From: Rhodocollybia butyracea | Lineage: Eukaryota > Basidiomycota > Agaricomycetes > Agaricales > Omphalotaceae | Assembly: GCA_015501585.1 (NCBI GenBank) | Contig: JADNRY010000004.1 | Location: 806,001-870,000, forward strand | DNA length: 64,000 nucleotides | Reading direction: 5' to 3' | Shown: piece after piece, positions 8,838 to 61,603 of the stretch | Layout of the letters: each line of letters starts with the position of its first letter | Numbering within the stretch: position 1 is the stretch's first letter | Made by a program: the position numbers and the translations under genes | Notes under the pieces: generated by a model | What the model saw: only the letters and a program-made list of their open reading frames with translations | What the model was told of the DNA's origin: nothing | Databases searched by the model: none

Positions 8838-10044
8838 ATGCAGCCTGCAACGCGCAATGTGCTTCTTAACTATATCGGACCTGAGCTTATCAATAGCTCT
8901 AACACAACCAGCATTCTCGATATCGACCAGCCAGCCTTTTCTCCTTCAGAACTTGCAGCTCTTATCTCAACCAAGTCCTCGAAAAGAGCACGCCCTGAGC
9001 AGGGAGGAGAGCGCATCACATGGGAGTTTCTAGATAACATGCCACGCCGAGAGTGTCTGTACTGGTTCAGGTACGTTTCAACCTCCTATTGCATTGTTTT
9101 TTCTAACATACTCTTGCAGATTCTATCCAGAGGAAATTGCTGAACTTGCAACAGCTCTTCATATACCAGATCCGTTCATCACTAGGACGCGTTCTAGCTT
9201 CCCCAGCATCGAAGCGTTAAGTCTACTTTTGGCTCGTTTTCGGTCAGCAGGAGACATGTATGATTTAACCTCGCGCTATGATCGTTCCCAGTCTGCAATA
9301 TCAGAGATCATCAATGAGCTAACAGAGTATTTGGATGAAACGTGGAAACACCTACTCGAACTTAGTCCCAGGAACCATACAATCTCCTCAGCACGCATGG
9401 CAGTATATGCTAATGCTCTTCATCGACATGGTGCTCCTCTCCCGAATATCTGGTGTTTCATTGACTGTACCATCCGTGCAATGTGTCGTCCTTCACAGTT
9501 CCAGCGACAGGCATATAACGGGTACAAGGGTCATCATGCGCTGAAGTTTCAGGCACTCAAGACTCCTGATGGCCTAATATGTCAGTTGCATGGGCCAGTT
9601 GAAGGTCATCGAAATGATAATCACTTGCTTGCTGACTCTGGAGTGCTCGAATGGTGCCGTGCAAATGCTTTCCGTCCTGGTGCTGACGGTAATACACCAA
9701 TCCAGCAACGCTACTTCCAAATCTTTGGTGATCCTGCATATGGGATCAGTCCTGTTCTCATGAGTCCGTTTGCTGGGGCTGGACAGCGTACAAGAGATGA
9801 GAAGGACTGGAATGAAGCTATGGCAAAGGTACGAATTGAGGTAGAGCATGGGTTTGCGGATGTTGTTCAGAGTTGGCCATTCCTAAATGCTTGGTGGAAG
9901 CTCAAGGTATACTGCTCTCCCATAGGACGATACTACCGGGTTGGTGTTTTACTCTCCAACTGTTATAACTGTATACGGCCAAACCAAACTGCACAGACTT
10001 TGGACTGTTATCCTCCCTCCCTCAATGAATACTTACAACTTTGA
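8838..10044 (+). CDS. Harbinger-type DDE transposase (DDE_Tnp_4 family)
   Basis: Two exons, 8838-9070 and 9120-10044, join across a 49-base GT-AG intron (donor GTACGT, acceptor TTGCAG) to give 385 residues with no internal stop. The N-terminal half (about residues 95-150) has the helix-turn-helix look of Harbinger transposases (LLLARFRSAGDMYDLTSRY, then SQSAISEIINEL). The DDE catalytic acids are visible: D in FIDCTIRAMCRP, D in FGDPAYGISP, and E in RIEVEHGFADVVQ. Spacing and length fit the family. It cuts and pastes the element at short AT-rich targets, in the nucleus with its Myb partner. The start ATG lies 149 bases inside the left terminal repeat. The 316-codon frame that begins at 9094 is only exon 2 read into the intron. 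Confidence 0.93.
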
Positions 10045-10124: not shown

Positions 10125-11549
10125 CTAAGTAGACTTAGCCTGCTCAGCCTTGAAACGAGCTTTCTCGATATCCAGGAAACCTGCCATAATCCCCGCCATC
10201 TCCTGTCCTCGCTTATCTGAGTTCTCCAAGAGCTTCGTCATCTGCTCTTGATGGGCCTTCTGATCTTGCTGACCCTTCTCAATGAGACTAATGAGGACCT
10301 TGCCTGTAGAGTCCTCACGATGAACACGTCTCGACTTGTTGGAGGATCGCTTCGGAGTTTCTGGTTCCATATCATTGTCCTGTTAGATAAAATCAGACAA
10401 CGAAGAGATCGCAATGATAGGCACATACAGAATCATTCCTTTGCTTGCGCTTCTTGACAAAGGTCCTCATAGAGGCCTCCCGAATCATAGCCCCTCCCTC
10501 GTTATCTTCATCTTGTTTCTGAAAAACAATGTTTAGGATTAGGCAAACAACAACAAAACGTGGACATACCTGTTTTAACGCAGCTTTCTGCTCCTCTGAC
10601 TTATGTTCCGCATCATCATTTTGCGTCTCGAGACGCTCAAGAAGGGCCGCGATAGTGATCTTGTATGATTCGTTCTTGTCAAGAATGTTGGCGATGGCAC
10701 GCACCTCACGGGTGGTACTGGCGGGATTCTAGATGGAAATAAATAGTTCGTAAGACAATAGATAGAAGATACAACGAAGGAGCGTACCTCCTTATAAGCT
10801 ACCAGACCCATAACCTTGCTTCGAATGGAGGACGACTCAATATTCTTCAGCCGAAACGCTGGGTTTGCCACCAAACGGTCAGTCAATTCCTGCCACACTT
10901 TGCCTTTCTGACCATGCGGAGCGAGGAACGGGTTTGTTTCCACAGCTTGTCGAGCTGTTTCCACTAAGTCCGCTCCACTAAAGCGACGCTCACCCACCTG
11001 AGCAGTGGGTTTCAACGGTTTGGCAGCAGCAGCGCTGTTACCAATTTGGCAGCGAGCCTGTTCGATATCGACATTCCACTTGCGTGAAGGACTGGATACA
11101 AGAGGAGTCCGAGTGACACTACCTCCAGCCATGGTCACAGGAGTCATTGAACGGGAGATAGGAGGGAGAAAGCGGTCCTGAAAGCCACCCAGAGGTGGCA
11201 TAGATGTGGAATGGTCCTTGTACGTGGAAACCATTGGTAGAGGTTGGGCGAAATGAAAGGATGGAAAGCCTGGTTGAGATACTGACGTGTTTGCGGCAGG
11301 ACAGGCCACAACATGATTGTCCGGAGATGAGGACTGGGAGTGCCAAGGATTATCGTCGACTTGATCATCGATGTCAGATTCCAAAGAGTATGGAAGCTCT
11401 CGAAGCTCTGCTTCAGAGACTTCAAAGCAATGCCCATACTCCTTTGCTATGCGAGAAGAAACCGGAGGACGGCAGATGTTGTCGAAGTGCGCATCGAAGA
11501 AGCGATCAAGTTCGCGGCGTTTCTGTGTGTTTTCTTTATCGTTATACAT
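10125..11549 (-). CDS. Harbinger-associated Myb/SANT-like protein
   Basis: Four exons on the minus strand (11549-10788, 10728-10570, 10518-10429, 10379-10125) are separated by three short introns, all phase 0. They join to 421 residues without a stop. The central part (about residues 170-250) reads FSGADLVETARQAVETNPFL then GKVWQELTDRL and SSSIRSKV, the tryptophan/leucine pattern of the Myb/SANT-like DNA-binding domain carried by PIF/Harbinger second ORFs. The C-terminal half is charged and helical (coiled coil likely: QKAHQEQMTKLLENSDKRGQ). In this family the protein binds the element ends and brings in the transposase. I chose the ATG at 11549. The frame is open further upstream but only with a GTG. 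Confidence 0.85.
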
Positions 11550-11971
11550 GAAGTTCAAGCTGGGAGGAGAAAACACGTACCAGACACCCTTTATACCCTT
11601 TTCCCTGCTCTATCCCTGCTCAACATATCCGTGACCGCGTTTGAGAGACGTCATCGAGTGGGGCAAAAGTGCCACTAAAGCATTGGCTCCAGTGGCTTGA
11701 AGGTTTTAGCAAGAGACTAGCCAAACGGGGTCAGCTTGTGGAGGTGGCAATGTGAAATAGGTCTCAGAGGACTTGGATAACAGTGGATAACTTGCTTGCC
11801 CAGCTACGATGGTAAGAGCGGAAGGTAGCAGCGGCGAGCATTGAAAAGTGCAACATGTCATCCGGCACGGCAATTCGGATCAGATACAGTATCAGTATGT
11901 CCGACAAGTAAACGTAAGGCTCTGTGTCTCAAAAAAAATCGATTTGAGACGTGCGGCTAATACACCCTTAT

Positions 11972-36021: not shown

Positions 36022-36244
36022 GAGGACAAAGCTGGTGATGACTCAGATAGCATTTAATCACTAACTGTATATTTGACTCTGTTCTCAAACTCTGGAAACC
36101 CTACATGTTCAAGACAATGTGAGCCAAAAACAAGGATACCAAAGATATCCTTCTTCATGCAAGCTAGGCGGTCGTGCTGCTCTAATCATTAACTAGCGTC
36201 ATATAATCTATAAAGAAAAATTTTCTCTGGACTCTGGAGCAGAT

Positions 36245-36801
36245 CAGTGTTGTGGCTAAGGCCTTAATTAACCCCTCCAAATGAAGTTAGGTCTTAATAG
36301 GTTAATTTGAGGGGTTAATTAATTACAAATTAATGGCAATCTAAGTGCAAATTAAGGCCTAGGTAAAAACAATTAATTTCCAGTGTACTTGTCTCCAGAG
36401 CCACCCAAAGCATCATCATCAAGTGTCTCATTGTCCTTTCCTTGTGCTCACAATTCCATTATTAACTAAATACTGCACATGGAATATGTCACAGCTGGTG
36501 TTCTGGCACCCATTCTTCTGCTCTGCAAATTGGTATCAGTAGTTGTTGAGTGGTTAATTAACTGAAAAGGATGTTAGATGACCCGGGTAGCTTGGCATGC
36601 TCATGAGCTCCCCTAAGGAAGTGGAGTTGGGGGGAGGGGTTAAATATTCTCGAGACTTGTTTGGGCGCAAGCCACTTGATCACATGTCTTATTAAGACCT
36701 AACTAACCCTTAACTAAAAATTCCAGCGAAGTTAGGTCTTAATTAAGAAGTAAATTAAGGCCTTAATCTTAATTAAGTCTTAGGTCTTAACCACAACACT
36801 G
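36245..36801. mobile_element. hAT-type MITE
   Basis: The 557-bp AT-rich element has terminal inverted repeat CAGTGTTGTGG at 36245-36255 and its complement CCACAACACTG at 36791-36801. It is flanked by the 8-bp direct repeat GAGCAGAT (36237-36244 and 36802-36809). The CAGTG start and 8-bp duplication are the hallmarks of hAT elements. Inside, CTTAATTAA-type and GAAGTTAGGTCTTAAT words are repeated in both directions. There is no transposase, so it is non-autonomous. Confidence 0.9.
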
Positions 36802-36809
36802 GAGCAGAT

Positions 36810-37259
36810 CCAGCTGCCTTAATGTGTCTTGGGCCCTCAGTGGCCAATCCCATTGTGCAAGATTTCCCCCTATGTCCTTTCTTGTAAGCAATGAAATGAC
36901 TGTAATCTACTGTGCTTGTGGCCAATCCTGGTGATACCAGGGTGAGTGCGCCAATGATTTTGAACTGGGTGAGAGAAATCACAATCATTTAATCAAGACA
37001 TCCAGTTTGCATCACATTGCACTTTTTCTGCGAGGCATGAGGGACCAACAAAGAGCTTCAAGCTGTTGGAACGCAGCTACTCAACAGAGCTGTACTAGCT
37101 CAAATATAGATAATGAGGTTACATCAGGCCTGTTCAGCCAGAGCAAAGAACCCAGTTATCTGTTATCCCATGTCCAGGGCCATGTCCTAGCTCACCACCA
37201 GCTCAAAAGCTTGACTTGATATTCACAGTAGGTGAACAGTTCAACAAGCTCTTTTTCCT
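36810..37259. other. Intergenic, metallophosphatase 3' flank at right end
   Basis: No gene is seen up to about 37185. 37186-37259 is the conserved flank seen at the 3' ends of other metallophosphatase copies (CACCAGCTCAAAAGCTTGACTTGATATTCACAG-type sequence, also near 30070). Confidence 0.4.
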
Positions 37260-37299: not shown

Positions 37300-37488
37300 A
37301 GATTAGGATAGATTGGAAATCGAAAAGGCAATGTCGAACCAACTTACAATGCTTCCTTCAATCCTTGGTCTAACCACTGGCAACCCCCTCTCTCCACCAT
37401 CCAATACCAAAACCGCTTCCTCCTTCATAACATGGTCATGATCAAAAGAGTCCACTTCCTGACCGGTACCAGCAGGACACTCCTCCAA
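37300..37488 (-). pseudogene. 5'-nucleotidase-like copy, 3' part, cut by LTR element
   Basis: The minus strand reads VLDGGERGLPVVRPRIEGSIVS, the last residues of the metallophosphatase, then EEC before the homology stops at 37488, where the LTR retrotransposon begins. The rest of the same copy resumes at 45207. TCCAA is present on both sides, so the element split this copy. Confidence 0.85.
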
Positions 37489-37744
37489 TGTAACGCCTCC
37501 TCCCCATCTTGCCTGATTCCCTTCCGGCCGCACCTTATGGCGCGGCCTTAACTTTTGTCGCATCGCGACTCTTATCTTATCTTATCTTACGATTAGATAT
37601 CATTTCTATTCTATTCATTTCGATTACTATAACTAGTCGAATTACATAAATTACTGTAGTTCTTCTACACTAGGAGTACACAATCGCATAGCCTTTGTCG
37701 TGCTCTTTCGTGTGAACGTAAGACTCTCGCCTAAGGGCGTTATA
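37489..37744 (+). repeat. 5' LTR of element 1
   Basis: Direct repeat partner of 44951-45206. The sequence after it (37745 onward, CTTTTTTGAGCATCAAAAA) is shared with element 2 and does not begin with the usual TGG of a tRNA 3'-end primer site. Confidence 0.93.
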
Positions 37745-37901
37745 CTTTTTTGAGCATCAAAAATCTTTATTAAAAGATTGTGTGCACAAAACTACGAGAA
37801 GTAATAACTACTCGACTAGAATTATAAAGTAATCTAAACAATTATCACCACTCTTACTCTGCATCAAAAGCGCCAAGCAAAATCAACAAAAGTTCAATCA
37901 C

Positions 37902-40900
37902 ATGGACCAAAACAGGAACTCAGAGAAGTCCCAACGAGATGCGAGCAATCGCCACTCACAACATGGTGATGCCACGTCACCAATAAATTCACACGACAGT
38001 AGTCATAGTTCACGACTACCACCGTATGCAGGACAAAGTCCTGAAATTGAGCTGTCTAACAACAGGCAGAATGTAAGTGATGTCGAAGACATCCGTGAGC
38101 GTGCATCGAATACGACGCACGATAAACTATCTGAGTCTAATGAGTCTCAGGGAGCCTTTAGCAATAAAGGCTTCGCAGACATGAATGACCTCAAGGAGGC
38201 CATGCAAGAACTATCGCAGTTCTATGGACAAGGTGCGCAAGCACTAAACCGTATAGCTACCGCGGTAGAACGTTGGTCCGGACCATCCGGAATGAGTAAG
38301 TCCAGACCGTTACCAGATACTGGTAACCTTACGAGCATAGCAATGCCCGTAGCCCGACCGCCAGCAGTAACGCCAGCGGTATTACAGGCGGCATTACCGC
38401 CTGACAACGAACAAGCAAGTCGTTGGGAAGGCATAAAGCCTACCACACATCTGTTCCGTCAAACGATGGGAATATACAAACCACCAGGTGCCCGAGATCG
38501 GAGACCTAAAGAATCTTTCAAGCCAATACATAACGTATGGCATATGGATTCATTCGATCCGATAGACCCACCTGAAGGTGAAGGTCTATTTGACAACCTT
38601 GAAACCGAGGTTGTAGAAGAAGGTGATCGCCAAAGCGATCCCTATAATAACTTTGGCAACTTTGTAACGATAAGGAAGAATCAAACTTCCCAAACGAACA
38701 AAATGCCAAATAAAGGAGTTCATGCAAATGAAAGCCCAGTCATTGACTTATCAAACTCGACAATGGGTAAATCAAATGAACCCCAGATGCTTCGTTACTC
38801 TCCAGTAATAAGGCAAAACATCTTCACAGGAAGAATGTCTCCGGCCCCAAGAGGACCGAGATCGTTACCTACTCCGCCTACAATTAGTATACGGAAGAAT
38901 GACCCCATCCAACGGACAGAGTCAACAATAGTGGGACCATTGAGAAATGAGTCCCTTATCAAAGCTCACGAAGCATTCATTCAAGAATTGAATGAACATT
39001 ATCGTAAAAACCAACCATTGGTTGATGTTAGTATTCCTACACAAGGAATACAAACGAAAACGATAGCGCAGTCAGCACCGATAACGGTACGTATGGCGCA
39101 AACACAGACAACGACACAAGCCGTTCATCAACAAAACACGCAAGGACCTGGTCCGAGCACAATGGTACTACATACAGTAGTACCACCCGCACAACAACAG
39201 TTACCTCCGGTAACTCTTACACAGCAAGTACAAACAGTACCTGCTAAAATGAAGGCTTCTGTAAAGAAAGAGCCAATTACTACGGTGATCCCACCAGTAA
39301 CAATACAACAAGCAGTACCACAAACAGTAGTACTACCAACACTGCCAGCTACAATAGTACAGGCATCGCCAATAGTAGTACCAACACTGGTACCACTGAT
39401 AAATGAAGTACAGAATAATACTGCACTGACGGCGATAAGATCGCCTAGTATGCCGCTCCCGAACGGGATAACGAGCGATTGGGAAAGTCGCGTAGCAATT
39501 CAGAGACAACACAACTATAGTCTCAGAACATCGGGTATGATACCGGATGCATTCCCTGACCAGATGGTAGGATTCAATGACGACGGCATCCCCATCGACA
39601 AACTAACTACTCCACGAGAAGTTTGGGATCGGGAGTATAATAATACCTCCTCAAAGCAAGCTCAATCGTCGCAACCCTACAAGGGTGGCAGAGTTAGGTA
39701 TGCCTCCGGCACACCTGGAGATCCTGATGATAACTCCGACAGCTCTGACTCTAGCGATAGAGACAAGAAGCGTAAAGGTACACCTTGGTCTGATGAATCA
39801 TCAGACGATAACAAAAAGGAGTCCGATTCTGACTCCTCATCTAACGATTCCTGGGTGAATTATATAATTCAACCACAGGCAAATCTTAGTAAATTGCAAC
39901 AGCGTAAGCTGCAACGAAAACTTGCAGCTAAACTGCGAGAGAAAACAGGGGATGACGAATGTTGTGCCTGATGAAAACACCAGGTACACAGAGTGTATCG
40001 ACGTATGGTACGTCATGCAGTGGGGAAACCCGTCACAAATACAGACGGAGCTAAGAATATCAAGCTCCCAACGCCTGAGGCATACGATGGTACGCCAGAC
40101 GTAGAAATTTTCGAGAGATGGTTAGCCATCCTTCTCAGATGGATGGCTGTAAATCGCTATTGTGGTAAAGACCACGATAAAACACGCCTCCAGGTATTGG
40201 GGTTATTCCTCAAGGACAAAGCCCTTGATTGGTACAACGACGAAGTCGATGGACCTCATAGGATCACAATATCCTGGAAATTCGAAGACGCCATAATAGG
40301 AATCTTCGATAGATGCGTACAAGCATCTACAATACATCAAGCTGCTCAGCAGTTTGAACAAGTAATATACTCACCCGCTAAAGGCGTACGAGATTATCAC
40401 GCCACCCTATTAAGATGGGCGGCAAGGATGCAGCAGCCGCCTAATTTGGCTGCGATGCGCAATTGATTCATTAATGGGTTACCCATTACGATACTGAAAC
40501 ATCTAGCGAACCAAGGCATCGTTCCAGAGTATGCTAAACTCAGAACGATGGTCAAAGCGGTTACTAGACTCGAGGACAATCGTCATCTCGAAGATTACTA
40601 CATGACTTCACGTAAGAAACCGAGCTCTGAAGACTCGAAATATATCACTAAGCGAATACGCCGTGAAGCAAAAGTACAACCAAGTGGTAGTACAGGACCA
40701 TATAAATATGGTCCAGTGCTCATCAAAGGACAACCATTTCAACTGGTGAAGCATCGCTTCTCCAATAATAAATCGAAGCCCGTACGCACTGAGAATACAC
40801 TCAGAAGCACGGGACAGGTAACAAACTCTAAGAGTTCAAGACCTAAACCGTCTAGTGACACAAGCACTAGAAAACTCTGCTACGGATGTGGCAAACCGGG

Positions 40901-41525
40901 ACATTTTGCAAATGACCCTACTTGTGAACGATACGGGCAACCCCGCATGTATGTCATCCAAGAAGAGGATGAACAAGAGGAGATAGAATCTCCTCCGATA
41001 GTCGAAGAAGAGATTCAAAATGATGAATCTCCGAACATAACTGATCCTAATGACGAGGAATCGTCCGAAGGAGAATACACCCTCGAACCATACGAGGATG
41101 AATATGTCGGTCGACTATATGACGATGACGATGACTTTAGCGACAACTATGGTCGCATAATGGAACCGGTTCAGACCGATTCTGAGGATTTTGAAAATCC
41201 ATTAGATGATTGTGGACCACCGGTCTGCATAGAAGAGGATATGGATGATGATTTATTCTTATCCATAGATCCTCACTATCATTCATTCATAATGAATGAA
41301 GATCGGTTGACTGCTATCAGTCACCATGAAGACGAAGAACCAAAACCTGAAAAAGGTAAAGGTTCTCGAACTTCAAGTAAACAAATGCCCAATGATGGAA
41401 TTCGCATTGAATTCCAGCGTAAACGAGAGCACAGGGTATGCTCCCTTCGAGGTAGATGGAGGGTACATGCCATTCATGGTTCGCAAATACCCGAGCGATG
41501 CAAAAGTCTCGCCGGGTGTACGTGA
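37902..41525 (+). pseudogene. gag of LTR element 1, interrupted by TGA codons
   Basis: One frame runs from ATG 37902 to 41525, broken only by a TGA TGA pair (39969-39974) and a TGA at 40464-40466. Residues 1-680 are polar, proline/glutamine/threonine-rich and disordered (the matrix-like N-terminal part). Residues about 700-890 are the retrotransposon gag domain (YDGTPDVEIFERWL, KDKALDWYNDEV, GVRDYHATLLRWA). About residue 990 there is a CCHC zinc knuckle (CYGCGKPGHFANDPTC) for RNA binding, followed by an acidic tail. Element 2 has sense codons at all three positions (CAA, TGG, and CGG in place of the third TGA), so these are acquired nonsense changes. The junction to the integrase remnant lies near 41400. 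Confidence 0.88.
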
Positions 41526-42105
41526 ATTCGCAGATTGTGCCCTGCAGCACCTCTCTGATGCCCACGATAGTCTTATCGAGGCAAGGGTAAAACAAACCTT
41601 CCATGCTAATAAGCACAGAAGGGATGAACCCGAAATTAAACTAAATGATTTAGTTTACCTATCGACAAAAAACTTAAATTTGCCGAGGGGGAGGGCTACC
41701 AAGCTCTTACCAAAATTCTTAGGACCGTACCCCGTCGTCAAGGTACATCCAGATTCGTCTAACTACCGAATCGGATTGCCAACAGAGTTGGCAAAGCGTG
41801 GAATACACAATAACTTCCACGCGTCGCTAATACGCAAGCATCATCCTAACGATGATGCATTATTCCCTATGCGCTCTGTAGCAGAGCCATACAATTTCGG
41901 CGAACCATCCACAGTGGAATGGTTAGTCGATGAAATAATCGGACATCATTGGGATGGCCGAAAAATACTATTCCATATTAAATGGAATCTTGGTGATACC
42001 ACCACAGAACCGTACACAATGTGTAAGGAACTAGTCGCTCTAGATAGATATCTAGAACTTCAAGGCGTCGACGACTGGCGACGACTTCCACGGACGACCG
42101 GTTAG
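41326..42105 (+). pseudogene. Integrase C-terminus with GPY/F module and chromodomain
   Basis: This frame is +1 relative to gag. It begins in gag sequence and, from about 41400, reads FALNSSVNESTGYAPFEV, the end of the integrase catalytic core. The GPY/F module follows (KFLGPYPVVKVHPDSSNYRI). A chromodomain follows (STVEWLVDEIIGHHWDG, FHIKWNLGDTTTEPY). Chromodomains direct chromovirus insertion to marked chromatin. All upstream pol domains are absent, so this is a remnant made by one internal deletion. Confidence 0.9.
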
Positions 42106-42559
42106 GTCTCCATTCCAATCAAAATATTCTATATAATAGAATCACACAGAAGCAACAGCATCTGCTTCTTTTAGTAAAAGATTGCCCCGACAATCACATT
42201 TGGTGGCTGTACCTTATGTACAACTGTAACAGCTACGGAATTGGCGCCGCTTTGGTTATTATCAATAGCGCTTATTATGTAATCTTTAGTTCCTTTCCTT
42301 CCTGCCACTTTGTGTGTACTCTCAATAGAATTGGGTTGTGTGCACTTGGTGGGATTTAAGGACTCTTTTAGCTGCTATCAGCTAAGCTTTCAGCCTTACC
42401 CGCTCTTATCTTGCTATATCAGCTAGCCTGCTCTCAGCCCAGGGGCTTTACAACAACCACGATCGGGCAACGCCTCATGTCGTGCCTATAAAAAGGGAAA
42501 GAAAAATTTATCTTTCCCAACTTACTCTTTCACCATCATGGAGAAAGACATGCTGTCGA

Positions 42560-44866
42560 ATGACAACGAAAACAGCGTCGCTGCCTCGGCAGCAACAACG
42601 ACAAAACGATGGCGCTGGGCAACCAGCGCTATCTCCATCCTCTATACCGGCTCAACTGAGCAATCAGTTGATACCTAATCAACGAACGGTTGGCGCGTCG
42701 ACGAACCCGCCAGCACAACTTGTGTTCGGCACAGCAAACGCATATCCTGCTGAACCAGCGGGATTACAACAAGCCAGTAACATGGCAGGTACGGGGTCAT
42801 CATCGATGGCCTTCAACCAGGTATCCAACAACGTTGGACACCAATTATCGTGGACATTCCACCCTAATATAGGGTGTCGTCTTCACGAGATTTCGAACAT
42901 GGGGATTTGTCCTCATTGCCAAAACTTCCTCCAGCATTCGACGGAGGCATTCGTTATGGCGGACCCTAGTTGGACCGCCGCTGGTAACGCTCAAGAGGAG
43001 TACTACTGGCAACACCATCGACACAACATGTCGAACAACGAAAACGAATCAGCGGTGCAGCTGGCTATCCAGCTTGGCACCACTAGCCGTGACTTATTGT
43101 CTCTTACGAGACAGTATACTGATCTACAGTGCGACTACGATGACACAGCACGCGAAATTCGCAGCCTCCAAGAGAGGTGCGACAGATACTCAGATGAATT
43201 GGAAGGATACCGACGGTATTCATCCACCAGACATGGTCATGGCTCTCCTCGTTATGAGGAGGAAAGCCAGTCTGGGAAACGACAAAGGGTAGAAGCTCCG
43301 GCTTCAACCGTATTCTTGTCTAACAACGACTCAGTGTCATTTGACATTGATAGTAGCGCAGGTCCAATGGACCTGGATCCATCAACGACAGGAGCACCTG
43401 CTCCGTTGTCTTCCTACGCAGGAGCGGTACTTAGTACCAATCCTGCTTTGTCTTCTACCATTCCTCCTGAAACTCAGGAGGACGCTCCGGCAGTACTGCC
43501 AGAACTCCCTCATCGAAGGAGTGATGGTGGCTACTTTGCCACCGATGGCTGGATTTGCTACGGCGAAGATGCCAATCTCATCGAAGTCAATGACAATTGA
43601 CGACTTCCCATTTCTTATGGGATTCACACCGCTCGCGAGGCTACCCTTGCTAGAGCAGAAAATCTTATATTCCTGGCTAACAGCCGAGAAGTCATCTGGT
43701 ATCTTAGAATACTTCGCAAACCCACGTTTGCGAGTAGACATGGCTACAACACCTCACGGCGTTGGACAGTATACCGGGTCTTAGACCAGGAAGTCCGATC
43801 CCTCCGAAGAGGAGATCTAACTCACATAAGTGAGTTACAACGAACTCTGCTCGTCAACTGGTTTGAACCAGTTTTCATATCGATTGCCCGAACTGCCAAG
43901 CAGGACAAGGCTGCTGGCATCACTGCTGGCACTCTGGATGGAGAAAACTCCGTCCAAAAGAAGAAAAAAGGGAAAGGCCGTATGAAGCCCGCCCCTGTAG
44001 GCTGGTCCAGCAGTACTGCTGCCGGACCCTCATCCATTCGAATGGCTCCTGCAGGCACTGCACTGCGAGCCGAACTCTCACTGCCGTCCCGACATGGTAC
44101 GGCTGATGCCTGGGCGGCATATCTTGTCACCCCACAAGGGTTGACCGTGCGCCCTTCGGGCATTGTGTACCGTAAAGACGGTGCAGTAAGCGAGCGCTCC
44201 ATTCGTGGACGCCAGCTGATCAATCCCAGGCGGCCTGATCCGCCTTCTGGAACCCCTCTGGACGTATCGTCCAGATATTTGCTGTTGGCGTCGGAGGTTA
44301 TCCTCCGTCACCATTATTATCGCCTTTTAGTGGCTACAGGGCGAATTACAATCGCCTCGCCTCCTCCGCCGCGAACATCGTTTACTAATTACCTCAATGG
44401 CACCATTGAGGATGTTGCCCGATTCTTTGCTGAGCAAGGAATCTCTGTTGCGGATCTCGAAGATTCCGCTTTGTATGCAGCCACCTGGCTGCAAACATTC
44501 AATCCGCGTAATGCGGAAGCAGCATTAGCTGCTTCAATACTCAGGGGACGTATGCCCCCTCATCTTCGTCTCCCTGCTGGGATCAACGATCACTATCGTA
44601 CCCTTACGGGTACAATAGACAATTGTCTGCCGGCCATCACTGATGTCCAGCTTACTCCAACGGTGGTGCCTACGGCACCGCAAGTATTCAACCCGCCGCC
44701 TGTGCCTGTGCCACAGGCTTCATCTATTGCATCAACTTCGTCAATGACAAACAACACCGCTGCTGGAGCCACTGCTCCAGCTCATTCTTCATCTGGACCT
44801 GCTCCCGCAGGACCGTCTTCATCATCTGGAGATACGTCTCCCCAGATGGATGAATCTGATGGATAA
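42560..44866 (+). pseudogene. Extra 3' ORF of LTR element 1, about 769 codons, one TGA
   Basis: The frame is open from ATG 42560 to the stop at 44864-44866 except for one TGA at 43598-43600 (followed by CGA). Residues about 1-110 are disordered. About 125-145 hold GCRLHEI, then GICPHCQNFL (possible metal-binding C/H pairs). About 180-230 form a coiled coil (LLSLTRQYTDLQCDYDDTAREI, LQERCDRYSDELEGYRRY). After the TGA come an alpha-helical part (ATLARAENLIFLANSREVIW, LQRTLLVNWFEPVFISIA), a KKKKGKGR nuclear-localisation-like patch, and a Pro/Ser/Thr-rich tail. It has no similarity that I recognise to pol or env. It lies between integrase and the polypurine tract, the place of env-like or accessory ORFs in other LTR elements. 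Confidence 0.75.
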
Positions 44867-44950
44867 TCCCCCCAGTAATACGTCTTATTGGGGATTTATC
44901 CCATCATATCGTTTGATTAGTACCCTAGGTACTAATCTAGTGGGGGAGGG

Positions 44951-45206
44951 TGTAACGCCTCCTCCCCATCTTGCCTGATTCCCTTCTGGCCGCGCCTTAT
45001 GGCGCGGCCTTAACTTTTGTCGCATCGCGACTCTTATCTTATCTTATCTTACGATTAGATATCATTTCTATTCTATTCATTTCGATTACTATAACTAGTC
45101 GAATTACATAAATTACTGTAGTTCTTCTACACTACGAGTACACAATCGCATAGCCTTTGTCGTGCTCTTTTGTGTGAACGTAAGACTCTCGCCTAAGGGC
45201 GTTATA
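44951..45206 (+). repeat. 3' LTR of element 1
   Basis: Partner of 37489-37744. It contains a perfect 9-bp hairpin with a TTAT loop at 44988-45009, which is damaged by one base in the 5' LTR. Confidence 0.93.
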
Positions 45207-45510
45207 TCCAATATCTCCAACAGGATACCCATATCCGCCATCTCAGGTTTGGGAGTTGGGACCAATAAGTATCTCCACTCCCAAGTTGCTCAAGCATGTA
45301 TAGCCGTCAAAACCTTCTGCAATGAAGGTGGACATTGTGAGTGTGAATTTGGAGGGCGGCTCTGTGGGAGTGAAGGGAGAGGAAGTGGAAGCAGATGATT
45401 GGGAAAAGGAATCCGGTGCAGACTTGGATAGTACTGTTTTTATCCCAACTCTAACACACCTTATGTGGGAGCGTGCAAAAGCCACCTCAATAGCAATGCC
45501 CGATATTAGG
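45207..45510 (-). pseudogene. 5'-nucleotidase-like copy, interrupted part
   Basis: This continues the metallophosphatase copy of 37300-37488 on the other side of the LTR element. The minus strand reads IAIEVAFARSHIRCVRV, then SKFTLTMSTFIAEGFDGYTCL. Joined at the TCCAA duplication, the sequence lines up with the uninterrupted copy near 17420-17440 (CTCCAATATCTCCAA). Homology stops near 45510, so the 5' two thirds of the gene are absent. Confidence 0.85.
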
Positions 45511-47575: not shown

Positions 47576-49033
47576 CAGTTCAGTCACCCACATATTTGGT
47601 CTTATTAGTCTACACTTTTGTTACATTGACCTTACTAAAAAGACTCAAAAACCTAGGCAAAACCTGGGCAGCTAGGTCATGACCTTGGGATTTAGGTCAT
47701 GACCTAAAAAATTGGTCATGACCTAGGTCAGGTTGGTCTTTTCCTGGGGTTGGTAGGTCATGGCCTGGGGTGAAATAGGATATGGCCTAGGTGGGGCAGG
47801 GCATGGTCTAGGTGAGGGAGGATATGGTCTAGGAGTCTAAGAGGTGAAGGGTGAGAGTGGAGGATGGTGAGATAGAGAATATAAACAAGAATGAAATATC
47901 ATAGAATAATGACTTGAAATTTTTAGAAACATATTGGGATTTTTTACATATCTGTAGATTATGACAAGATTAAGCTAAGTCACAGTGCCCTGTTCTGGGT
48001 GGTCAGGGAAGCATGGGACTTACCTGACCTAGCTGATTTAGGTCATGACCTACTTTTTTTAGGTCATGACCTACCTGACCTACCTAGCCTAGGTCATGAC
48101 CTACCTAACCTAGGTCATGACCTGGGTGAACTAGGTCATGACCCAGGCCAATTTAAAAATTACTAAATTAGGAAATTTTTCAATTTTTGCAGTGGATGAG
48201 GTCAAAGCTGTTGTTATTACCAAATAAGGCAATTTTCAAACACCTTAACCGGTTTTATGTTTTTTTAATAGAGTTTGGATACTCATCCACTGCAAAAATT
48301 GAAAAATTTCCTAATTTAGTAATTTTTAAATTGGCCCGGGTCATGATCTAGTTCACCCAGGTCATGACCTAGGCTAGGTAGGTCATGACCTAGGTCAGGT
48401 AGGTCATGACCTAGGTTAGGTAGGTCATGACCTAGGTTAGGTAGGTCATGACCTAGTTCACCCAGGTCATGACCTAAATCAGCTAGGTCAGATAAGTCCC
48501 ATGCTTCCCTGACCACCCAGAACAGGGCACTGTGACTTAGCTTAATCTTGTCATAATCTACAGATATGTAAAAAATCCCAATATGTTTCTAAAAATTTCA
48601 AGTCATTATTCTATGATATTTCATTCTTGTTTATATTCTCTATCTCACCATCCTCCACTCTCACCCTACACCTCTTAGACTATATCTCCCCCTCCTAGAC
48701 CATACCCTCCTCCTCCCAGACTATACCCTCCTCCTCCTAGACCATACCCTCCCTCACCTAGACCATGCCCTCCCTCACCTAGACCATGCCCTCCCTCACC
48801 TAGACCATGCCCTGCCCCACCTAGGCCATATCCTATCTCACCCCAGACCATGACCTACCAACCCCAGGAAAGACCAACCTGACCTAGGTCATGACCAATT
48901 TTTTAGGTCATGACCTAATTCCCAGGTCATGACCTAGCTGCCCGGGTTTTGCCTAGGTTTTTGGGTCTTTTTAGTAAGGTCAATGTAACAAAAGTGTAGA
49001 CTAATAAGACCAAATATGTGGTTGCCTGAAGTG
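47576..49033. mobile_element. Large foldback element A
   Basis: This 1458-bp element is almost one palindrome: 47576-48195 pairs with about 48285-49033. Ends are CAGTTCAG and CTGAAGTG, flanked by the 7-bp direct repeat AGTCTAT (47569-47575 and 49034-49040). Arms contain runs of GGTCATGACC joined by CTAGGTCAGGTA-type spacers (notably 48340-48480). The loop holds GCAGTGGATGAGGTCAAAGC, shared with elements B and C. There are no genes. Confidence 0.9.
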
Positions 49034-50840: not shown

Positions 50841-53800
50841 CAGTTCAGTCACCCTCTTTTTTAGTCTAATTAGCTTACACTTTTGTTACATTGACCTGAC
50901 TAAAAAGACCCAGAATCCTGGGCTTATCCTTCGAGCCTAGGTCATGACCTGGAGATTAGGTCATGACCTAGGGTCCAGGTCAAGACCTAGGTCAGGCTGG
51001 TCTAGGACATGGCCAAGGGTAGGGTAGGGGATGGTGTAGCAGGGGTGGGGGAGTGTGAGGGGGGAATGGGAGACCTGATAGGAGGGGAGGAAGACCAAAG
51101 GCAGGTAGGCAGGTAGGTGACCTAGGGTTGAATAGGGTATGCTTTGGGATGGGTAGGGGATGGGTAGGGGAGTGTAGTAGAGTGTCTGGGAGGAGTAAGG
51201 GAGTGTCTGGAAGAGGTAGAGAAGTGTGTGTGAGTGTAGGAGGAGGGAGACCAAAGAACAGGACACCAGGAAAAGGGAGGACAGGTGCTTGGGATGATAA
51301 GGGATGCTGTGTTAATGGATACCTGGGAAGAGGGACAGTGGAATAATTGAGATGCTGTGGAAGAGATCAGAACAATTCTTAAAGGGATTGGGGAATTGTT
51401 TCTGAGGGTGGCCGCAACATGGAAGGGGTCTTACAGGGCACCCTTAGGGATGTGGAGTAGGCAGAGCAGGAGGGTAGAACCACTTGCTCTGGGCAACTTG
51501 GTTTTGACCTGGTCTTGACCAGGGGCAGGTTGGTCTTGATCTAGGTCAGGTTGGTCTTGACCTAGGTCAGGTTGGTCTTGACCTAGGTCAGGTTGGTCTT
51601 GACCTAGGTCAGGTTGGTCTTGACCTGGGTCAACTTGGTCTTGACCTAGGTCAACTTGGTCTTGACCTAGGTCAACTTGGTCTTGACCTAGGTCAACTTG
51701 GTCTTGACCTAGGTCAACTTGGCCTTGACCTAGTTCAACTTGGTCTTGACCTGGGTCAACTTGGTCAAGACCAAGGTTAAGTTGGTCTTGACCTGGGTGA
51801 ACTTGGTCTTGACCTGAGTCACTTTGGTCTTGACCTGGGGCAACTTGGTCTTGACCTGGGTGAACTTGGGCTGAACTTGGGCTTGACCTAGGTCACCTTG
51901 GTCTTGACCTGGGTGAACTTGGTCTTGACCTGGGTGAACTTGGTCTTGACCTGGGTGAACTTGGGCTTGACCTAGGTCACCTTGGTCTTGACCTGTCAGG
52001 TTGGTCTTGACCTAAAGCATTTTCAAAATGACTAATTAGGAAATTTTAATATTTTTGCAGTGGATGAGGTCAAAGCTGTTTTTATTACCAAATTAGGAAA
52101 TTTTCAAACACTTTAATTGGTTTTATGTTTTTCTACACTTTTGATAAATTACTATATTAGGCAATTTTATTTCAATAGGGTTTATTTTCTAATTAGGCAA
52201 TTTCAAAACTTTTGCAGTGGATGAGGTCAAAGCTGTTTCCATTGCATAATTGAAAAGTGACAAATCTTTTGCAGTGGATGAGGCCAAAGCTGTTTTCATT
52301 ACTTAATTGAGAAATCACAAATCTCTTGCAGTGGATGAGGTCAAAGCTGTTTTCACTACTTAATGGGGAAATTGTCAAACTTAACAAAAAAAACTGTTTA
52401 CACTCTTTCCCTGAGGACCACTGCTTGTAGTAGACATCCAGATCTCCTCTCTATATATGGAACAGGTTGCTCACCACAAATGAAGGTAGTCCTGTGGTGG
52501 GAAGGGGCTGGATTGCAAAATATTTTTTGGATAACCTTTGATTGTAGTGGATGAGGCCAAAGCTGTATGTCCATAAAAGGAAATCAATGAAAAGTGTTGA
52601 GTCTAAAGATTGCTTGATATAACATGCAGATTGGAGTGGATAAGGCTGATCCTTTTCATCCCCTGATGCCCTGATATGTTCTCTACCCTTTCTTGGTCTC
52701 TGATATATTTAGATGGCCCCTGGGAGATCAGTCTTTACTGATCTTTAAACTTTCCCATCAAAAACCCTCATTTTTTTCGAAATTTAAGGATAAGTATCAG
52801 AGTATCCAGGGCAGGTGGGGCCACAGGCATCTATGGCATTGTACTCTGGTATGATAGGTACATTTGGAGCACTCAGGAGTAGCCTATACTGTACTGGGAA
52901 AGTGGGTAATAATTGATCTCTGTATAAGTGTGCATAAATTTCGCTTTTTTACCTATTAAATCATTAATAGTGGCAGCTGTAGGGCAGAGAAGACTGTCTA
53001 TCTTGGCATATAGCATGCTAGTATTATACAGACTAATATGAGAATCTTTTCTTGACCTACCCCACCCTTGTCTTGATGTACCAGTAGTCCTGTGTTCTTA
53101 AGTGTTAGATACATGTGTCAAACTTATGGTCACATCTTGAACCTCAGATAGTGAGTATATTTTCTCATAAATGTGCTCTATCAGGCTCGAGTACACTATC
53201 CCTCGAGTTACTCCTCCATCCATTGACTACAGCTTCCTCTATTAATGATTTAATAGGTAAAAAAGCGAAATTTATGCACACTTATACAGAGATCAATTAT
53301 TACCCACTTTCCCAGTACAGTATAGGCTACTCCTGAGTGCTCCAAATGTACCTATCATACCAGAGTACAATGCCATAGATGCCTGTGGCCCCACCTGCCC
53401 TGGATACTCTGATACTTATCCTTAAATTTCGAAAAAATGAGGGTTTTTGATGGGAAAGTTTAAAGATCAGTAAAGACTGATCTCCCAGGGGCCATCTAAA
53501 TATATCAGAGACCAAGAAAGGGTAGAGAACATATCAGGGCATCAGGGGATGAAAAGGATCAGCCTTATCCACTCCAATCTGCATGTTATATCAAGCAATC
53601 TTTAGACTCAACACTTTTCATTGATTTCCTTTTATGGACATACAGCTTTGGCCTCATCCACTACAATCAAAGGTTATCCAAAAAATATTTTGCAATCCAG
53701 CCCCTTCCCACCACAGGACTACCTTCATTTGTGGTGAGCAACCTGTTCTATATATAGAGAGAGGATCTGGATGTCTACTATAAGCAGTTGTCCTCAGGGA

Positions 53801-56633: not shown

Positions 56634-56886
56634 TGTAACGCCTCCGCCTCTCCATAATCACCACTGACCATATCCGGTGATACAGTCATCCTAGACGCCG
56701 CCGATAGACCAAACGGTCTATTTTATCATTCTATTTATTATTAATTATATAATAAATCCGTTACTATAAGTATCGTACAATTACTTAAGAGTCTAGTTAG
56801 TCTTTTACACTGTTGTACACACAATAGTATCCTATTTGTTGTGTTCACCGGTGTTCTTAAGGACTTTGCCCATAGGGCGCGTTATA
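56634..56886 (+). repeat. 5' LTR of element 2
   Basis: Differs from the 3' LTR at about seven positions, all transitions as far as I can read. Two of them break the GACCGTAT/ATACGGTC hairpin that is perfect in the 3' LTR. Confidence 0.9.
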
Positions 56887-57056
56887 CTTTTTTGAACATC
56901 AAAAAATTACTATTGTGTGAATAACACAAAGCTATTAGTTAAAACAAGCTAAAAACAGTTATACTACCAAGTATAACAATCACTATTCCAACTCGCTTCA
57001 ACAAGCTATACAAATCCGCTCCATTTTTCCTTCTCGCTATATCATTTGCTGTCCCC

Positions 57057-59399
57057 ATGACCTCTCAAAATCAATCAGAGAAGTCATATCAGAGTGTGCG
57101 CGATTGCGCACCTTCCATTCGTGGTGACATGTCACCACACTCAATCTATTCAGTCGCATCAGCGACTCATTCCGTACATGCGTCTGAAGGACAGCACTAC
57201 AGGCAGGACAAGAGTCCACCTAATGAACAGTCTATGACTATTCGTAAGAAACGGCCAACCCGAGAGGGTTTAAGTGAGATTTCTTCTGCGCTACGAGATG
57301 TAGCGGCATCACTCGACAAGAGTACGCAAGTAATCAATCATATTCTCAATATAACTGAAAAATGGGATGCATCTAGCATCTGATCTGATGAAGAAAGATC
57401 TTCTTCATCAAGAAACAGCAATAGAATCACTATTGCTGCACCCACACCGAGACGGCCTACCGTCACACCACCGGTATTGCACAATGCAGCACCATCTGTT
57501 CCTACCGAGGCAAACAACTCGGTACGCCAATGGCGTGAGACTGTGCCCAAGGCACCGTCAGTCCAACAATCACTGTTGGACAAACAGTATTCACAAGGGA
57601 TGACCAAGTCACCCCGTCATGTTCCTGTATTCCAACAGGAATACGCACCAGTGTCAGTAACTATACCAACACCCATCTACACATCCCGCATGAGACAGAG
57701 TCCCAATGCGGAGGCAGCGTCTCTGACACTGCGAGGTCCCAGGCCATTACCGGTGACCAAATCTTGCTCACCACAAAGTGTGGTGAACATTAAAAGTGAA
57801 CCAAAGTTACCTCGTAACTTCAATCAGGTAGTAGTGATACCACCACAGGAAAGTACAATGTACTTCCCTACTGCAAGGGCGCCAATGGTACCCAATATTA
57901 TTACACCTCCAGTAGTTGTACCAAACACTACTGGAAATCATTCCAGTATGGGACCGCAACATGGTACCCTTCCGGTAGTTCCTACTACCATATCCATCGC
58001 CCTGGCAACACAAAGTGTTGCCCATCCGGTAGTACACACTACCGTAAGACTGCCCAAATTGCTGCCCAGCAATGTGCCAGAGCCAAGTTCAATGCCAGTA
58101 CCAACGGTATTGGCCAAGTTGCAACCACAGCCGCTTCCGTTGGGAGTAGCTAAAGATTGGGTGAGTCGCATAGCGATTCAACGCCAACATAATGCCAGTC
58201 TCCGAGATTTCGGATTTGCGCCATCTGGGCTTCCCGACCAAGTGGTGGGATATAATGTCGATGGAATACCCGTTGACTAATTGACTACTCCCAGAGAAAT
58301 CTGGGATCGATTTTACATCCCACCTGCCGAGTCCTTTCCAGGACCAAGCAACAATGCGAGAGCAAAAGCTCCTAGCAAAAAATCCCATGAAGGGGGGAGG
58401 AAGCACAAGAGTGCTAAATCCAAAGGCCGCAAACGCAGCCCATGGTCAGATGAATCATCGGACCCAAGTGACACTGAGTCAAATACTGACTCATCGTCTA
58501 ATGCCTCTTGGCTAGACAAATTTGCTACCCGCAAGGGTAAAATTACTAGAAATGAGCAGCGTAAATTACTGCGCTCACTTGCATCTAAGATGCGAGAAAC
58601 AACAGGTGACAATGAACGTCATTCCCAATGGAAACACAAGGTACACAAAGTGTACCGTAAACAAATTTGAGATAAGGTAGGGAATCCTATCCCTCCCATT
58701 GAGAGCCGTAAAGCTCTTAAAGTTCCATCTCCGGAGGTCTATGATGGATCTCCGGATGTTGATGTCTTCGAGCGGTGGCTAATGTCACTTCTCCAATGGA
58801 TGGTAGTCAACCGCATGTGCGGTGACAATTACGATGCTACATGGACTGCCGTGCTTGGCATGTTTCTACAGGGCAAAGCCCTTGACTGGTATAACGACGA
58901 AGTCGCTGGTATACACTGCACTGTCCTTAAGTGGACATTTGAAGGCGCCATTATTGGTGTCTTTGATCGTTGCATCCAAGCAACAACCATTCATCAAGCT
59001 GCACGGCAGTTTGACCTTATTGAGTATTCACCCGATACGGGTGTGAGGGATTATTATTCCTCACTTACACGATGGGCATCACGGATGCTCCAAACACCGG
59101 ATGATGCAACAATGCGGAAACGGTTCATTGAGGGATTACCCTTCAATATTATCAGGCAACTCACAAACGAGGGGATCATTCCGGAGTATGCCAAATTAGA
59201 AGTGATGGTCAGAGCCGTCACACGCATTGAGGACCACATGGCCCTCACTAAATATTATGTCTCTTCTAGGAATAGAGACGATGAGCTTGAATCATCAGAA
59301 CACCCCGATGAGTCGGACACCGAGAACATTAGAAATGTTCTTGAGCCAATCGAGGAGGACACCTCCTTAAGTATCGGAAAGGATAAACCTTCCGAATGA
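57057..59399 (+). pseudogene. gag of LTR element 2, three in-frame stops
   Basis: One frame runs from ATG 57057 to 59399 with stops at 57381 (TGA), 58278 (TAA) and 58668 (TGA). Order: disordered N-terminal part, LTTPREIWDRFY and RSPWSDESSD segments shared with element 1, then the gag domain (YDGSPDVDVFERWLM, GKALDWYNDEV, GVRDYYSSLTRWA), then an acidic tail. It lacks the CCHC zinc knuckle of element 1. At 58668 element 1 has a sense codon where this copy has TGA in an ATTTGAGAT context, as expected from CGA. Confidence 0.88.
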
Positions 59400-59730
59400 T
59401 TTATTGGTTTATTCCGACGCCCAGGTAATATGCCTTACCTGGGCATCACTACTTATCCTCAGCCCGGATTCTCACTGAGAATTCTCATTAAGCAATACTC
59501 GGAAACTTCCGAGTCTGCACGTTGAACATTCGGACATTTCCGAATCAAATCATGCTCTAGTGGTACGCCCCACTATTGTTTGATTCGGACAAGTCCGAAA
59601 ATCTGATGCGCCGCATCAATTAATCCCGTACTTGATACGGGATCATTCTATGTTAAACCAAATTAAAAATGGTTTGGATGGTGATGATGTCATTACCATT
59701 TTCGATTCACATCCCTGATGCTAATCTGGT
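59400..59730 (+). other. Noncoding 3' part of element 2
   Basis: No frame. It contains several short self-complementary words built on TTCGGA/TCCGAA (CGGAAACTTCCG near 59500, GGACATTTCC near 59532, GGACAAGTCC near 59588). Confidence 0.6.
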
Positions 59731-59739
59731 GGGGGAGGG

Positions 59740-59992
59740 TGTAACGCCTCCGCCTCTCCATAATCACCACTGACCGTATCCGGTGATACGGTCATCCTAG
59801 ACGCCGCCGATAGACCAAACGGTCTATTTTATCATTCTATTTATTATTAATTATATAATAAATCCGTTACTATAAGTATCGTACAATTACTTAAGAGTCT
59901 AGTTAGTCTTTTACACCGTCATACACACAATAGTATCCTATTTGTTGTGTTCACTGGTGTTCTTAAGGACTTTGCCCATAGGGCGCGTTATA
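59740..59992 (+). repeat. 3' LTR of element 2
   Basis: Direct partner of 56634-56886. It has a perfect 8-bp hairpin at 59772-59793 and TAGACC/GGTCTA at about 59811-59826. Confidence 0.92.
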
Positions 59993-60855: not shown

Positions 60856-61603
60856 CTTTAGGCAACCACTTTTTAGGTCTTGTTAGCTTACACTTTTGTT
60901 ACATTGACCTGACTAAAAAGACCCAAAATCCTGGGCCTATCCTTTGGCCTCAGGTCATGACCTAGCTCAAGTTGGTCCTGACCCAGGAGCCCTAGGTCAT
61001 GCTTTGGGAAGAGTAGGGGATGGGTAGAGGAGTGTAGAAGAGTGTCTGGGAGGGGTAAGGGAGTGTCTGAAAGAGGCCTGAGAGAAGTGTGTGTGAGTGT
61101 AGGAGGGGGGAGACCAAAGAACAGGATCACCAGGAAAAGGGAGGACAGGTGCTAGGGATGATAAGGGAGGCTGTGTTAATGGATACCTGGGGAGAGGAAC
61201 AGTGGAATGATTGAGATGCTGTGGGAGAGATTAGAACAATTGTTAGAGGGATTGGGGAATTGTTTCTGAGGGTGGCCACAACATGGTGGGGGTCTTACAG
61301 GCCACTGTTAGGTATGTGGAGTAGGCAAAGCAGGAGGGGTAGAACCACTTGCTCTGGGCAACTTGGTCTTGACCTGAATGAACTTGGTCTTGACCTGGGT
61401 CACCTTGGTCTTGACCAGGGGCAGGTTGGTCTTGACCTGGGTCACCTTGGTCTTGACCAGGGGCAGGTTGGTCTTGACCTGGGTGGACTTGGTCTTGACC
61501 TAAAGCATTTTCAAAATGACTAATTAGGAAATTTTAATATTTTTGCAGTGGATGAGGTCAAAGCTGTTTTTATTATCAAATTAGGAAATTTTCAAACACT
61601 TTA
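60854..61603. mobile_element. Foldback element C, left arm only
   Basis: It begins CACTTTAGGCAACCAC, follows element B in order (GTTACATTGACCTGACTAAAAAG, the CTTGACC array at 61365-61500, then GCAGTGGATGAGGTCAAAGC). It stops at 61603, where the Tc1/mariner element begins, at a point matching 52115 of element B. The other arm is not present in the window. Confidence 0.85.

Follow-up and report, generated by a model that had tools for sequence, protein, structure and literature searches.

Short Watson-Crick hairpins tile a clade of Ty3/Gypsy-type retrotransposons in the fungus Rhodocollybia butyracea

INTRODUCTION

Genome-scale ordered RNA structure (GORS) is a concept for RNA viruses and single-stranded RNA (ssRNA) phages, the latter having known RNA structure. 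Here, we analyze short hairpins in a long terminal repeat (LTR) retrotransposon, element 1 (positions 37489-45206), which lies in a 64,000-nucleotide stretch of the basidiomycete Rhodocollybia butyracea (assembly GCA_015501585.1, contig JADNRY010000004.1, forward-strand positions 806,001 to 870,000); this whole stretch is called the window, and all coordinates refer to it. A literature search yielded no case of GORS in a retroelement or retrovirus, and no hairpin-tiled LTR element was described in the titles or abstracts found, subscription papers lying mostly outside this search.

Two further systems come close in other respects. Perfect palindromes of up to 284 bp occur in coding sequences of Nematomorpha mitochondria, where they have been gained and lost between species and where, in the consulted sections of the report, repeat conversion is proposed (PMC6649704). 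For rRNA genes, the portions of a second report used here show how hairpins can arise and be upheld through template switching (PMC8794818). The elements described below form a clade of Ty3/Gypsy-type elements that is tiled throughout, in LTRs, gag, pol, 3′ open reading frames (ORFs), and noncoding sequence, with short Watson-Crick hairpins, typically with a stem of 5 to 10 bp and a loop of 3 to 5 nucleotides (nt).

RESULTS

Hairpin density in element 1

We counted perfect inverted repeats with loops of 1 to 10 nt over the whole window and compared element 1 with 20 dinucleotide shuffles of positions 37489-45206. Stems of at least 6 bp numbered 96, against a shuffle mean of 14.8 (standard deviation, 4.8; highest, 27), with 52 versus 3.65 at 7 bp or more, 33 versus 0.95 at 8 bp or more, 11 versus 0.05 at 9 bp or more, and 2 versus 0 at 10 bp or more. 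An initial annotation, made from the sequence alone, had described the element as packed with short hairpins, and their abundance turned out to be larger than it believed. Its figures of "at least nine" stems of 8 bp or more and "over 40" of 6 bp or more captured the excess but were too low, and 15 of the 16 hairpins that it listed are exact, the one given as 41398-41416 being off by one (a 7-bp stem with a 5-nt loop lies at 41397-41415).

Codon-preserving shuffles (200 per ORF) covered five of the six ORFs of element 1, with 39993-40466 left out. Stems of at least 6 bp numbered 25 versus 4.6 in the shuffles for ORF 37902-39971, 11 versus 3.0 for 40548-41525, 10 versus 2.8 for 41326-42105, 17 versus 2.7 for 42482-43600, and 13 versus 2.1 for 43982-44866, and in each ORF the observed count was matched by 0 of 200 shuffles. 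The claim that hairpin density exceeds that of codon-preserving shuffles thus holds within this sample. So does the remark that host genes and the Harbinger transposase look different: density was 2.4 stems/kb in window positions 1-36000 versus 12.4/kb in element 1, and five of six control ORFs outside the LTR elements (an F-box ORF, the Harbinger transposase, and four mechanically listed ORFs unproven as genes) fell inside their codon-shuffle range, the sixth (10575-11576) being high at stems of at least 6 bp (6 versus 2.2; reached by 4 of 200 shuffles) and ordinary at 7 bp or more. The transposase ORF itself (DDE_Tnp_4, Harbinger-like; 9094-10044) has an ordinary hairpin density.

We attach practically no weight to the idea that the hairpins are an artifact of base composition, amino acid content, or tandem repeats. 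High counts do come from tandem arrays that lie outside element 1, at 48 and 51 kb of the window, but these consist of 21-bp units and were excluded from the argument. The roughly 3.5- to 6.5-fold excess at stems of at least 6 bp, which is larger at 8 bp or more, survives both dinucleotide and codon shuffles, and these refute composition and protein content as its source.

Hairpin tiling among the retroelements of the genome

The first 24 bases of the element 1 LTR have 81 exact occurrences in the 95.6-Mb genome. Among 37 pieces of 20 genomic copies, 32 carry 10.0 to 14.8 stems/kb and the remaining five, which match element 1 in part only, carry 3.1 to 8.4; three further pieces (L046 to L048) are DNA near single LTR matches and gave low-density rows only (3.3, 1.5, and 1.7 stems/kb). 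In full copies, the starts of the two LTRs lie about 10.65 kb apart, and the total length is about 10.9 kb. In one of them, C659 (pieces L021 and L022), pol matches RVP_2, RVT_1, RT_RNaseH, Integrase_H2C2, rve, and SH3_Tf2-1 in this order, the RVP_2 match being weak (E 0.0016, under the cut-off). Because this is the order protease (PR; weak)-reverse transcriptase (RT)-RNase H (RH)-integrase (IN)-SH3, the family is by its domain content a Ty3/Gypsy (Metaviridae) LTR retrotransposon. The window copy has lost about 3.4 kb (PR, RT, RNase H, and the integrase core) at 41377-41389, a segment present in the full copies. Copies L041 and L043 likewise have large internal losses.

Ten RT places were hand-picked among about 150 matches listed, and four further places were picked from a second list of matches. 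In codon-shuffle comparisons, the pol pieces of the full copy held 39 stems of at least 6 bp versus 7.1 (L022) and 17 versus 2.9 (L021), and the pols of two sister families held 33 versus 5.0 (L053) and 34 versus 5.8 (L054), with about 15 stems/kb in each of the sister pol pieces L060 and L061. Element 2, a relative in the same window without a recognized pol, contains 54 stems of at least 6 bp (16.1/kb); its gag-like ORFs are about 53% identical to those of element 1 across 924 nt. Its ORF 57477-58280 has 15 stems versus 3.2 in codon shuffles and its ORF 58782-59399 has 7 versus 1.5 (0 of 200 shuffles in both cases), the latter being nonsignificant at 7 bp or more (1 versus 0.4; 68 of 200). 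Density is thus 15 to 18 stems/kb in the family pol, the four sister pol pieces, and pol-less element 2, versus 1 to 5 stems/kb in six other Ty3-like pols, two long interspersed nuclear elements (LINEs), host DNA, and the closest sister family among those fetched.

The six other Ty3-like pols have 2 to 10 stems per 2 kb. Three are mildly raised at stems of 6 bp and ordinary at 8 bp (L049, 10 versus 4.7, 0 of 100 shuffles; L050, 8 versus 4.4, 5 of 100; L051, 9 versus 5.3, 6 of 100), and one LINE is mildly raised (L056, 10 versus 3.8, 0 of 100) while the other is not (L055, 7 versus 4.1, 14 of 100). The nearest sister family among those fetched, about 46% identical in the integrase part, gave 9 stems versus 7.2 in L059 (34 of 100) and 10 versus 5.9 in L062 (6 of 100), the latter with 2 versus 0.4 at 8 bp (3 of 100). 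In a tree of 13 rows, from which the LINE rows were excluded and in which L057 forms a long branch and L060 and L061 fill about 30% of the columns, the five hairpin-rich rows fall on one side of a branch with 99/99 support. Judged by this tree, hairpin tiling marks one clade of Ty3/Gypsy-type elements among the rows sampled. RT motif B, a region that contacts the incoming nucleotide in retroviral RTs, reads MMMGDCNAP in L021, L053, and L054 and MPFGLTNAP, MYFGFSNAP, or MPQGLKNAP in the five other fetched pols showing it. Collections of viral contigs and genome contigs yielded no relatives of the family outside this genome.

Shape and sequence of the hairpins

Hairpin shape was analyzed in four pieces (L021, L022, L053, and element 2) with loops of 3 to 10 nt. 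The excess rises with stem length, from 4.9-fold at 6 bp to 15.6-fold at 7 bp, 28-fold at 8 bp, 70-fold at 9 bp, and 50-fold at 10 bp, the values at the longest lengths resting on expectations under 1. None of the 225 stems of at least 6 bp exceeds 10 bp, and one family copy, C441, has a 12-bp stem. Stems with one mismatch are also overrepresented (93 versus 10.7 expected), and the register that pairs third codon positions with each other shows no strong depletion, accounting for 37 of 129 stems. With respect to loop length, the excess tops at 3 to 4 nt and is back at baseline by about 20 nt; this restriction to short loops is a further point against a compositional artifact.

Stem sequences are nearly all distinct, the commonest 6-mer occurring in just 4 of 206 stems. 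That mini-hairpins of a mobile family spread into the element, one of the causes proposed at the outset, is therefore very improbable. Redundancy of stem 6-mers is slightly above that of random segments (75 versus 50.8), as such spread would have it, but the pol hairpins sit in codons that align across families, almost always gap-free, and divergence at codon positions 1 and 2 is no higher in lineage-specific stems than elsewhere in pol.

Maintenance of pairing and folding strength

Homologous positions retain their hairpins even as the two arms change in concert. Between the pols of element 1 and L053, which share 75% nucleotide and 53% third-position identity, the centers of 11 of 26 hairpins lie within 1 nt of each other (rotated, 0.85; maximum, 5 in 500 rotations), and two comparisons with L054 gave 9 of 18 (rotated, 0.61; maximum, 4) and 5 of 12 (0.38; maximum, 3). 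Read side by side, the alignments contain stems that hold their position with changes in both arms, stems that have moved, and places where the lineages carry different stems that overlap. Counting the fates of stem pairs (stems of at least 6 bp, loops of 3 to 10 nt) in both comparisons and both directions, which were pooled and hence are not independent, we found 364 of 518 unchanged, 25 with a double change to Watson-Crick, 12 with a double change to another combination, and 117 changed on a single side; for background pairs, 53.3% were unchanged, 3.0% showed double changes to Watson-Crick, and 4.9% showed other double changes. Among 66 third-third pairs (stems of at least 5 bp), 20 were unchanged, 15 had changed doubly to Watson-Crick, 5 doubly to another combination, and 26 singly. 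Codon choice in the conserved pol is bent toward hairpin formation. In gag, where elements 1 and 2 share 53% amino acid identity, 5 of 21 centers of stems of at least 5 bp coincide (rotated, 0.84; maximum, 4 of 500), and one of these hairpins shows a swap from A-T to T-A.

Among the family copies, of which C465, C441, C495, C532, C734, and the window copy match the reference halves in part and were included as such, all double changes in stems are Watson-Crick (26 when summed over copies, with some events shared between copies). Heavy CpG decay can mimic this pattern, since a CpG in one arm of a stem faces a CpG in the other. The compensatory changes for which the initial annotation had proposed to look are thus apparent between families, with 25 Watson-Crick versus 12 other double changes, but within the family CpG decay can imitate them. 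Copies L009 to L045 show very strong CpG decay, CpG making up about 12% of the sites counted and about 61% of the variants, as expected for a methylated repeat.

The ORFs also fold well below their codon shuffles, another check that had been proposed. On the plus strand, five ORFs of the clade gain 16 to 21 kcal per 200 nt in minimum free energy (z, −9 to −15), in or above the range of 11 to 17 kcal obtained for the replicase genes of four ssRNA phages, and nine ORF pieces are more stable than codon shuffles by 7.8 to 13.5 kcal per 120 nt. Of the other Ty3 pols, L049 gains 4.5 kcal per 200 nt and L052 gains nothing, and neither does the F-box ORF.

Selection on base pairing and the question of strand

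We give an even chance to the explanation that long-term selection on the base pairing of single-stranded replication forms causes the tiling. Local hairpins would compact the genomic RNA and shield it in the particle, and minus-strand cDNA would probably be shielded likewise, so that structure would count on both strands; individual hairpins would turn over, and density would be what persists. The optimum of 3 to 4 nt for the loop, as in physical hairpins, supports selection for structure. It is also tempting to take the rarity of shared variants in stems as a sign of constraint: outside the 256 bases skipped at both ends of each half, non-CpG shared variants are 0.42 times as frequent per site in stems (15/1760) as elsewhere (130/6425). 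Compared with singletons (54 in stems, 266 elsewhere), however, the Fisher P value is 0.069, and given also that the signal fades without the four older copies and that CpG sites run in the opposite direction, this test is only suggestive.

A number of observations weigh against selection on pairing. Without the four older copies, shared non-CpG variants stand at 8/1760 in stems versus 56/6425 elsewhere (P = 0.41), and shared variants at CpG sites are commoner in stems (63/182) than elsewhere (262/958). At 74 to 77% identity, just 13 of 26, 11 of 18, and 5 of 12 pol centers have a partner within 3 nt, and single hairpins are therefore dispensable. In gag, only 1 of 11 stems of at least 6 bp coincides between elements 1 and 2, and in a second gag segment (186 nt) 0 of 2 centers do. 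Noncoding parts of element 1 hold 8.6 stems/kb versus 13.3/kb in coding parts. Interior mismatches in the clade comprise 20 G-T versus 32 A-C (composition predicts a ratio of 0.68), and single changes in stem pairs led to G-T in 30 cases versus A-C in 39 (background, 9.2% versus 10.8%). Finally, plus-strand folding gain slightly exceeds that of the minus strand in the clade (8 of 9 retroelement pieces), and plus also gains more than minus in the phages (6 of 7 pieces) and the other Ty3 pols (4 of 6), but we rejected this as proof of strand, since it is confounded by composition and saturation with perfect stems would yield it.

The preference for G-U over A-C expected of RNA-type pairing was thus absent from the clade. 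In five ssRNA phages (MS2, Qbeta, GA, PP7, and SP), interior mismatches comprise 20 G-T versus 9 A-C (composition, 1.12); under relaxed criteria, the contrast shrinks to 47 versus 61 in the clade and 45 versus 33 in the phages. Because G-T is not favored over A-C, a simple form of selection on plus-strand RNA is weakened, and of the structured-RNA selection suggested initially, the retained positions, joint changes, and strong folding stand, whereas the G-U signature does not. Loops are A-rich and comprise 13 GNRA loops versus 5 of the reverse complement among 108, which leans weakly to the plus strand; the signal is weak because the phages, with their structured RNA, show no such excess (6 versus 9 among 72 loops). 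Taken together, the evidence fits either structure that matters on each of the two strands or a process that does not distinguish between them, such as arm-to-arm copying.

Alternatively, only DNA hairpins, in minus-strand cDNA or as cruciforms in integrated copies, might be selected or driven, with no role for RNA folding. About equal tolerance of G-T and A-C mismatches, both above that of other mismatches (0.63, 0.69, and 0.49 of background, respectively, from small numbers), would be in line with this, but the GNRA and A-rich loops lean, if weakly, to the plus strand. We know of no need for tiled DNA hairpins, which likewise counts against this explanation, and we consider it improbable.

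Template switching as a source of hairpins

Mutational drive offers a possible, if doubtful, alternative to selection on pairing. Here, the RT or strand transfer of the clade would, on meeting a folded stem, often jump to the newly made strand and copy one arm onto the other, thereby perfecting stems; the hairpins would be a by-product that recurrent correction upholds and protein function filters. In favor of this hypothesis, stems are Watson-Crick without G-U preference, the loop optimum is small, coding and noncoding sequences as well as pol-less element 2 are all affected, and the tiling is confined, in the sampled rows, to a single RT clade with its MMMGDCNAP motif. Moreover, third-third pairs have changed jointly about as often as they have stayed (15 versus 20), and there is a precedent in that template switching makes and maintains hairpins, as stated in the relevant sections of the rRNA gene report (PMC8794818).

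Footprints of such switches do exist among the copies. Of 208 clusters of at least two substitutions, 3 fit a reverse-complement copy of at least 14 nt, versus a simulated mean of 0.81 (0 of 100 simulations reached 3). The clearest is a loop inversion from TTAT to ATAA in an LTR hairpin, which a genome search allowing 1 mismatch located once. Since the partner LTR in that copy has retained the usual loop, the inversion probably arose after insertion and would not have been made by RT. A second footprint alters 2 nt of a loop and is also explained by two transitions, and the third is the 12-bp perfect stem in copy C441, where the direction of change is ambiguous.

Mutational drive is burdened by this small number of multibase footprints among 20 copies plus the window copy, the clearest of them probably not RT-made, by the excess of one-mismatch stems, which is unlike pure correction, by the lack of stems above 10 bp in the four pieces, noncoding sequence included (the C441 stem being in a single copy), and by the codon positions 1 and 2 that are not more diverged at lineage-specific stems. 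Template switching, another of the causes listed initially, thus does take place, but these data fall short of showing it to be the driver of hairpin density. An RT lineage that writes hairpins, in which switching perfects imperfect repeats over many cycles until the element and the pol-less elements that the RT copies are saturated and only protein function acts as a brake, seems rather unlikely to us; under this idea, the unusual MMMGDCNAP motif would be a candidate cause.

Architecture of element 1 and its surroundings

Features of element 1 and its relative are compiled in Table 1. In line with a Ty3/Gypsy element, the 256-bp LTRs differ at 4 positions and are flanked by the short target site duplication (TSD) TCCAA. 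The bases after the 5′ LTR, where a tRNA-complementary primer binding site would be expected, do not start with TGG, as read from the sequence without tRNA comparison, and the purine tract at the 3′ end is likely the polypurine tract (PPT). The 228-bp insertion at 42225-42452 is missing in 16 of 16 copy pieces whose match covers that place; judging from its ends and flanks, it is probably a solo LTR that inserted into the window copy. The gag region has one long frame in the window copy (37902-39971) and two overlapping frames in C659 (L021:514-1542 and 1542-3542). No Rfam family matched at gathering score across window positions 36000-61000.

Table 1. Coordinates of element 1, its flanks, and element 2 in the window
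Feature	Position	Strand	Details
TSD TCCAA, left	37484..37488	+	5 bp
5′ LTR of element 1	37489..37744	+	256 bp, TG...TA ends; 4/256 positions unlike 3′ LTR
gag-like ORF	37902..39971	+	689 aa; no Pfam match
ORF in gag region	39993..40466	+	157 aa; tblastx match of region to element 2
ORF closing gag region	40548..41525	+	weak CCHC zinc knuckle, below cut-off
ORF with 3′ pol remnant	41326..42105	+	Tf2-1-like SH3 domain
Deletion junction	41377..41389	+	13 bp common to both sides; copy C659 (L021/L022) versus window
228-bp insertion	42225..42452	+	TG...CA ends; 5-bp ACAAC duplication on flanks
3′ ORF	42482..43600	+	no Pfam match
3′ ORF	43982..44866	+	no Pfam match
Purine tract just ahead of 3′ LTR	44942..44950	+	read from sequence
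3′ LTR of element 1	44951..45206	+	contains 9-bp stem 44988-45009
TSD TCCAA, right	45207..45211	+	5 bp
Element 2, relative without recognized pol	56634..59992	+	253-bp LTRs with 6 differences; TSD TTACA; gag-like ORFs
3′ noncoding stretch of element 2	59400..59739	+	9 stems in 340 bp, nearly hairpin-tiled

Just 5′ of element 1, window positions 36132-36941 contain 11 stems of at least 6 bp, several of them overlapping; the region may be a further decayed element or some short repeat. Arrays of 21-bp units occupy 48293-48541, 51423-52039, and 61298-61567, and other repeats are common to 46-52 kb and 55-62 kb.

DISCUSSION

The clade resembles Ty3/Gypsy elements with a Tf2-like integrase C terminus in its LTRs, TSDs, zinc knuckle gag, PR-RT-RH-IN order, and SH3_Tf2-1 domain, but the six other Ty3-like pols of the genome, three of them mildly raised, are without tiling. 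These hairpin-poor relatives in the same genome provide a natural contrast, and therefore two questions become testable: whether the structure of a whole genome is selected or a mutational by-product, and of what use such structure is to a reverse-transcribing element.

Like the palindromes of Nematomorpha mitochondria, the hairpins are perfect inverted repeats inside functional protein-coding genes (PMC6649704, in the sections consulted). There, however, the palindromes are long and mitochondrial, with no excess of imperfect ones in the described data, whereas in the clade 0 of 225 stems in the four pieces exceed 10 bp and one-mismatch stems are in excess (93 versus 10.7). The template-switch hairpins of rRNA genes share with the clade compensatory changes, a preference for short loops (of four bases in that system), and rare loop inversions; the difference is that the sections consulted concern rRNA genes and name no retroelement or tiling of coding sequence (PMC8794818).

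A further likeness is to GORS and the ssRNA phages, with which the clade shares extensive structure across coding sequence, in excess of codon shuffles; its ORFs show the folding energies below codon shuffles that define GORS through a genome. The clade differs in that it lacks a G-U preference, is an LTR retrotransposon, and carries 13.8 perfect stems of at least 6 bp per kb versus 4.9 in the five phages (loops of 3 to 10 nt). It thus represents an extreme, clade-limited nucleic acid structure over a complete coding genome, with nearly three times the perfect-stem density of the five ssRNA phages.

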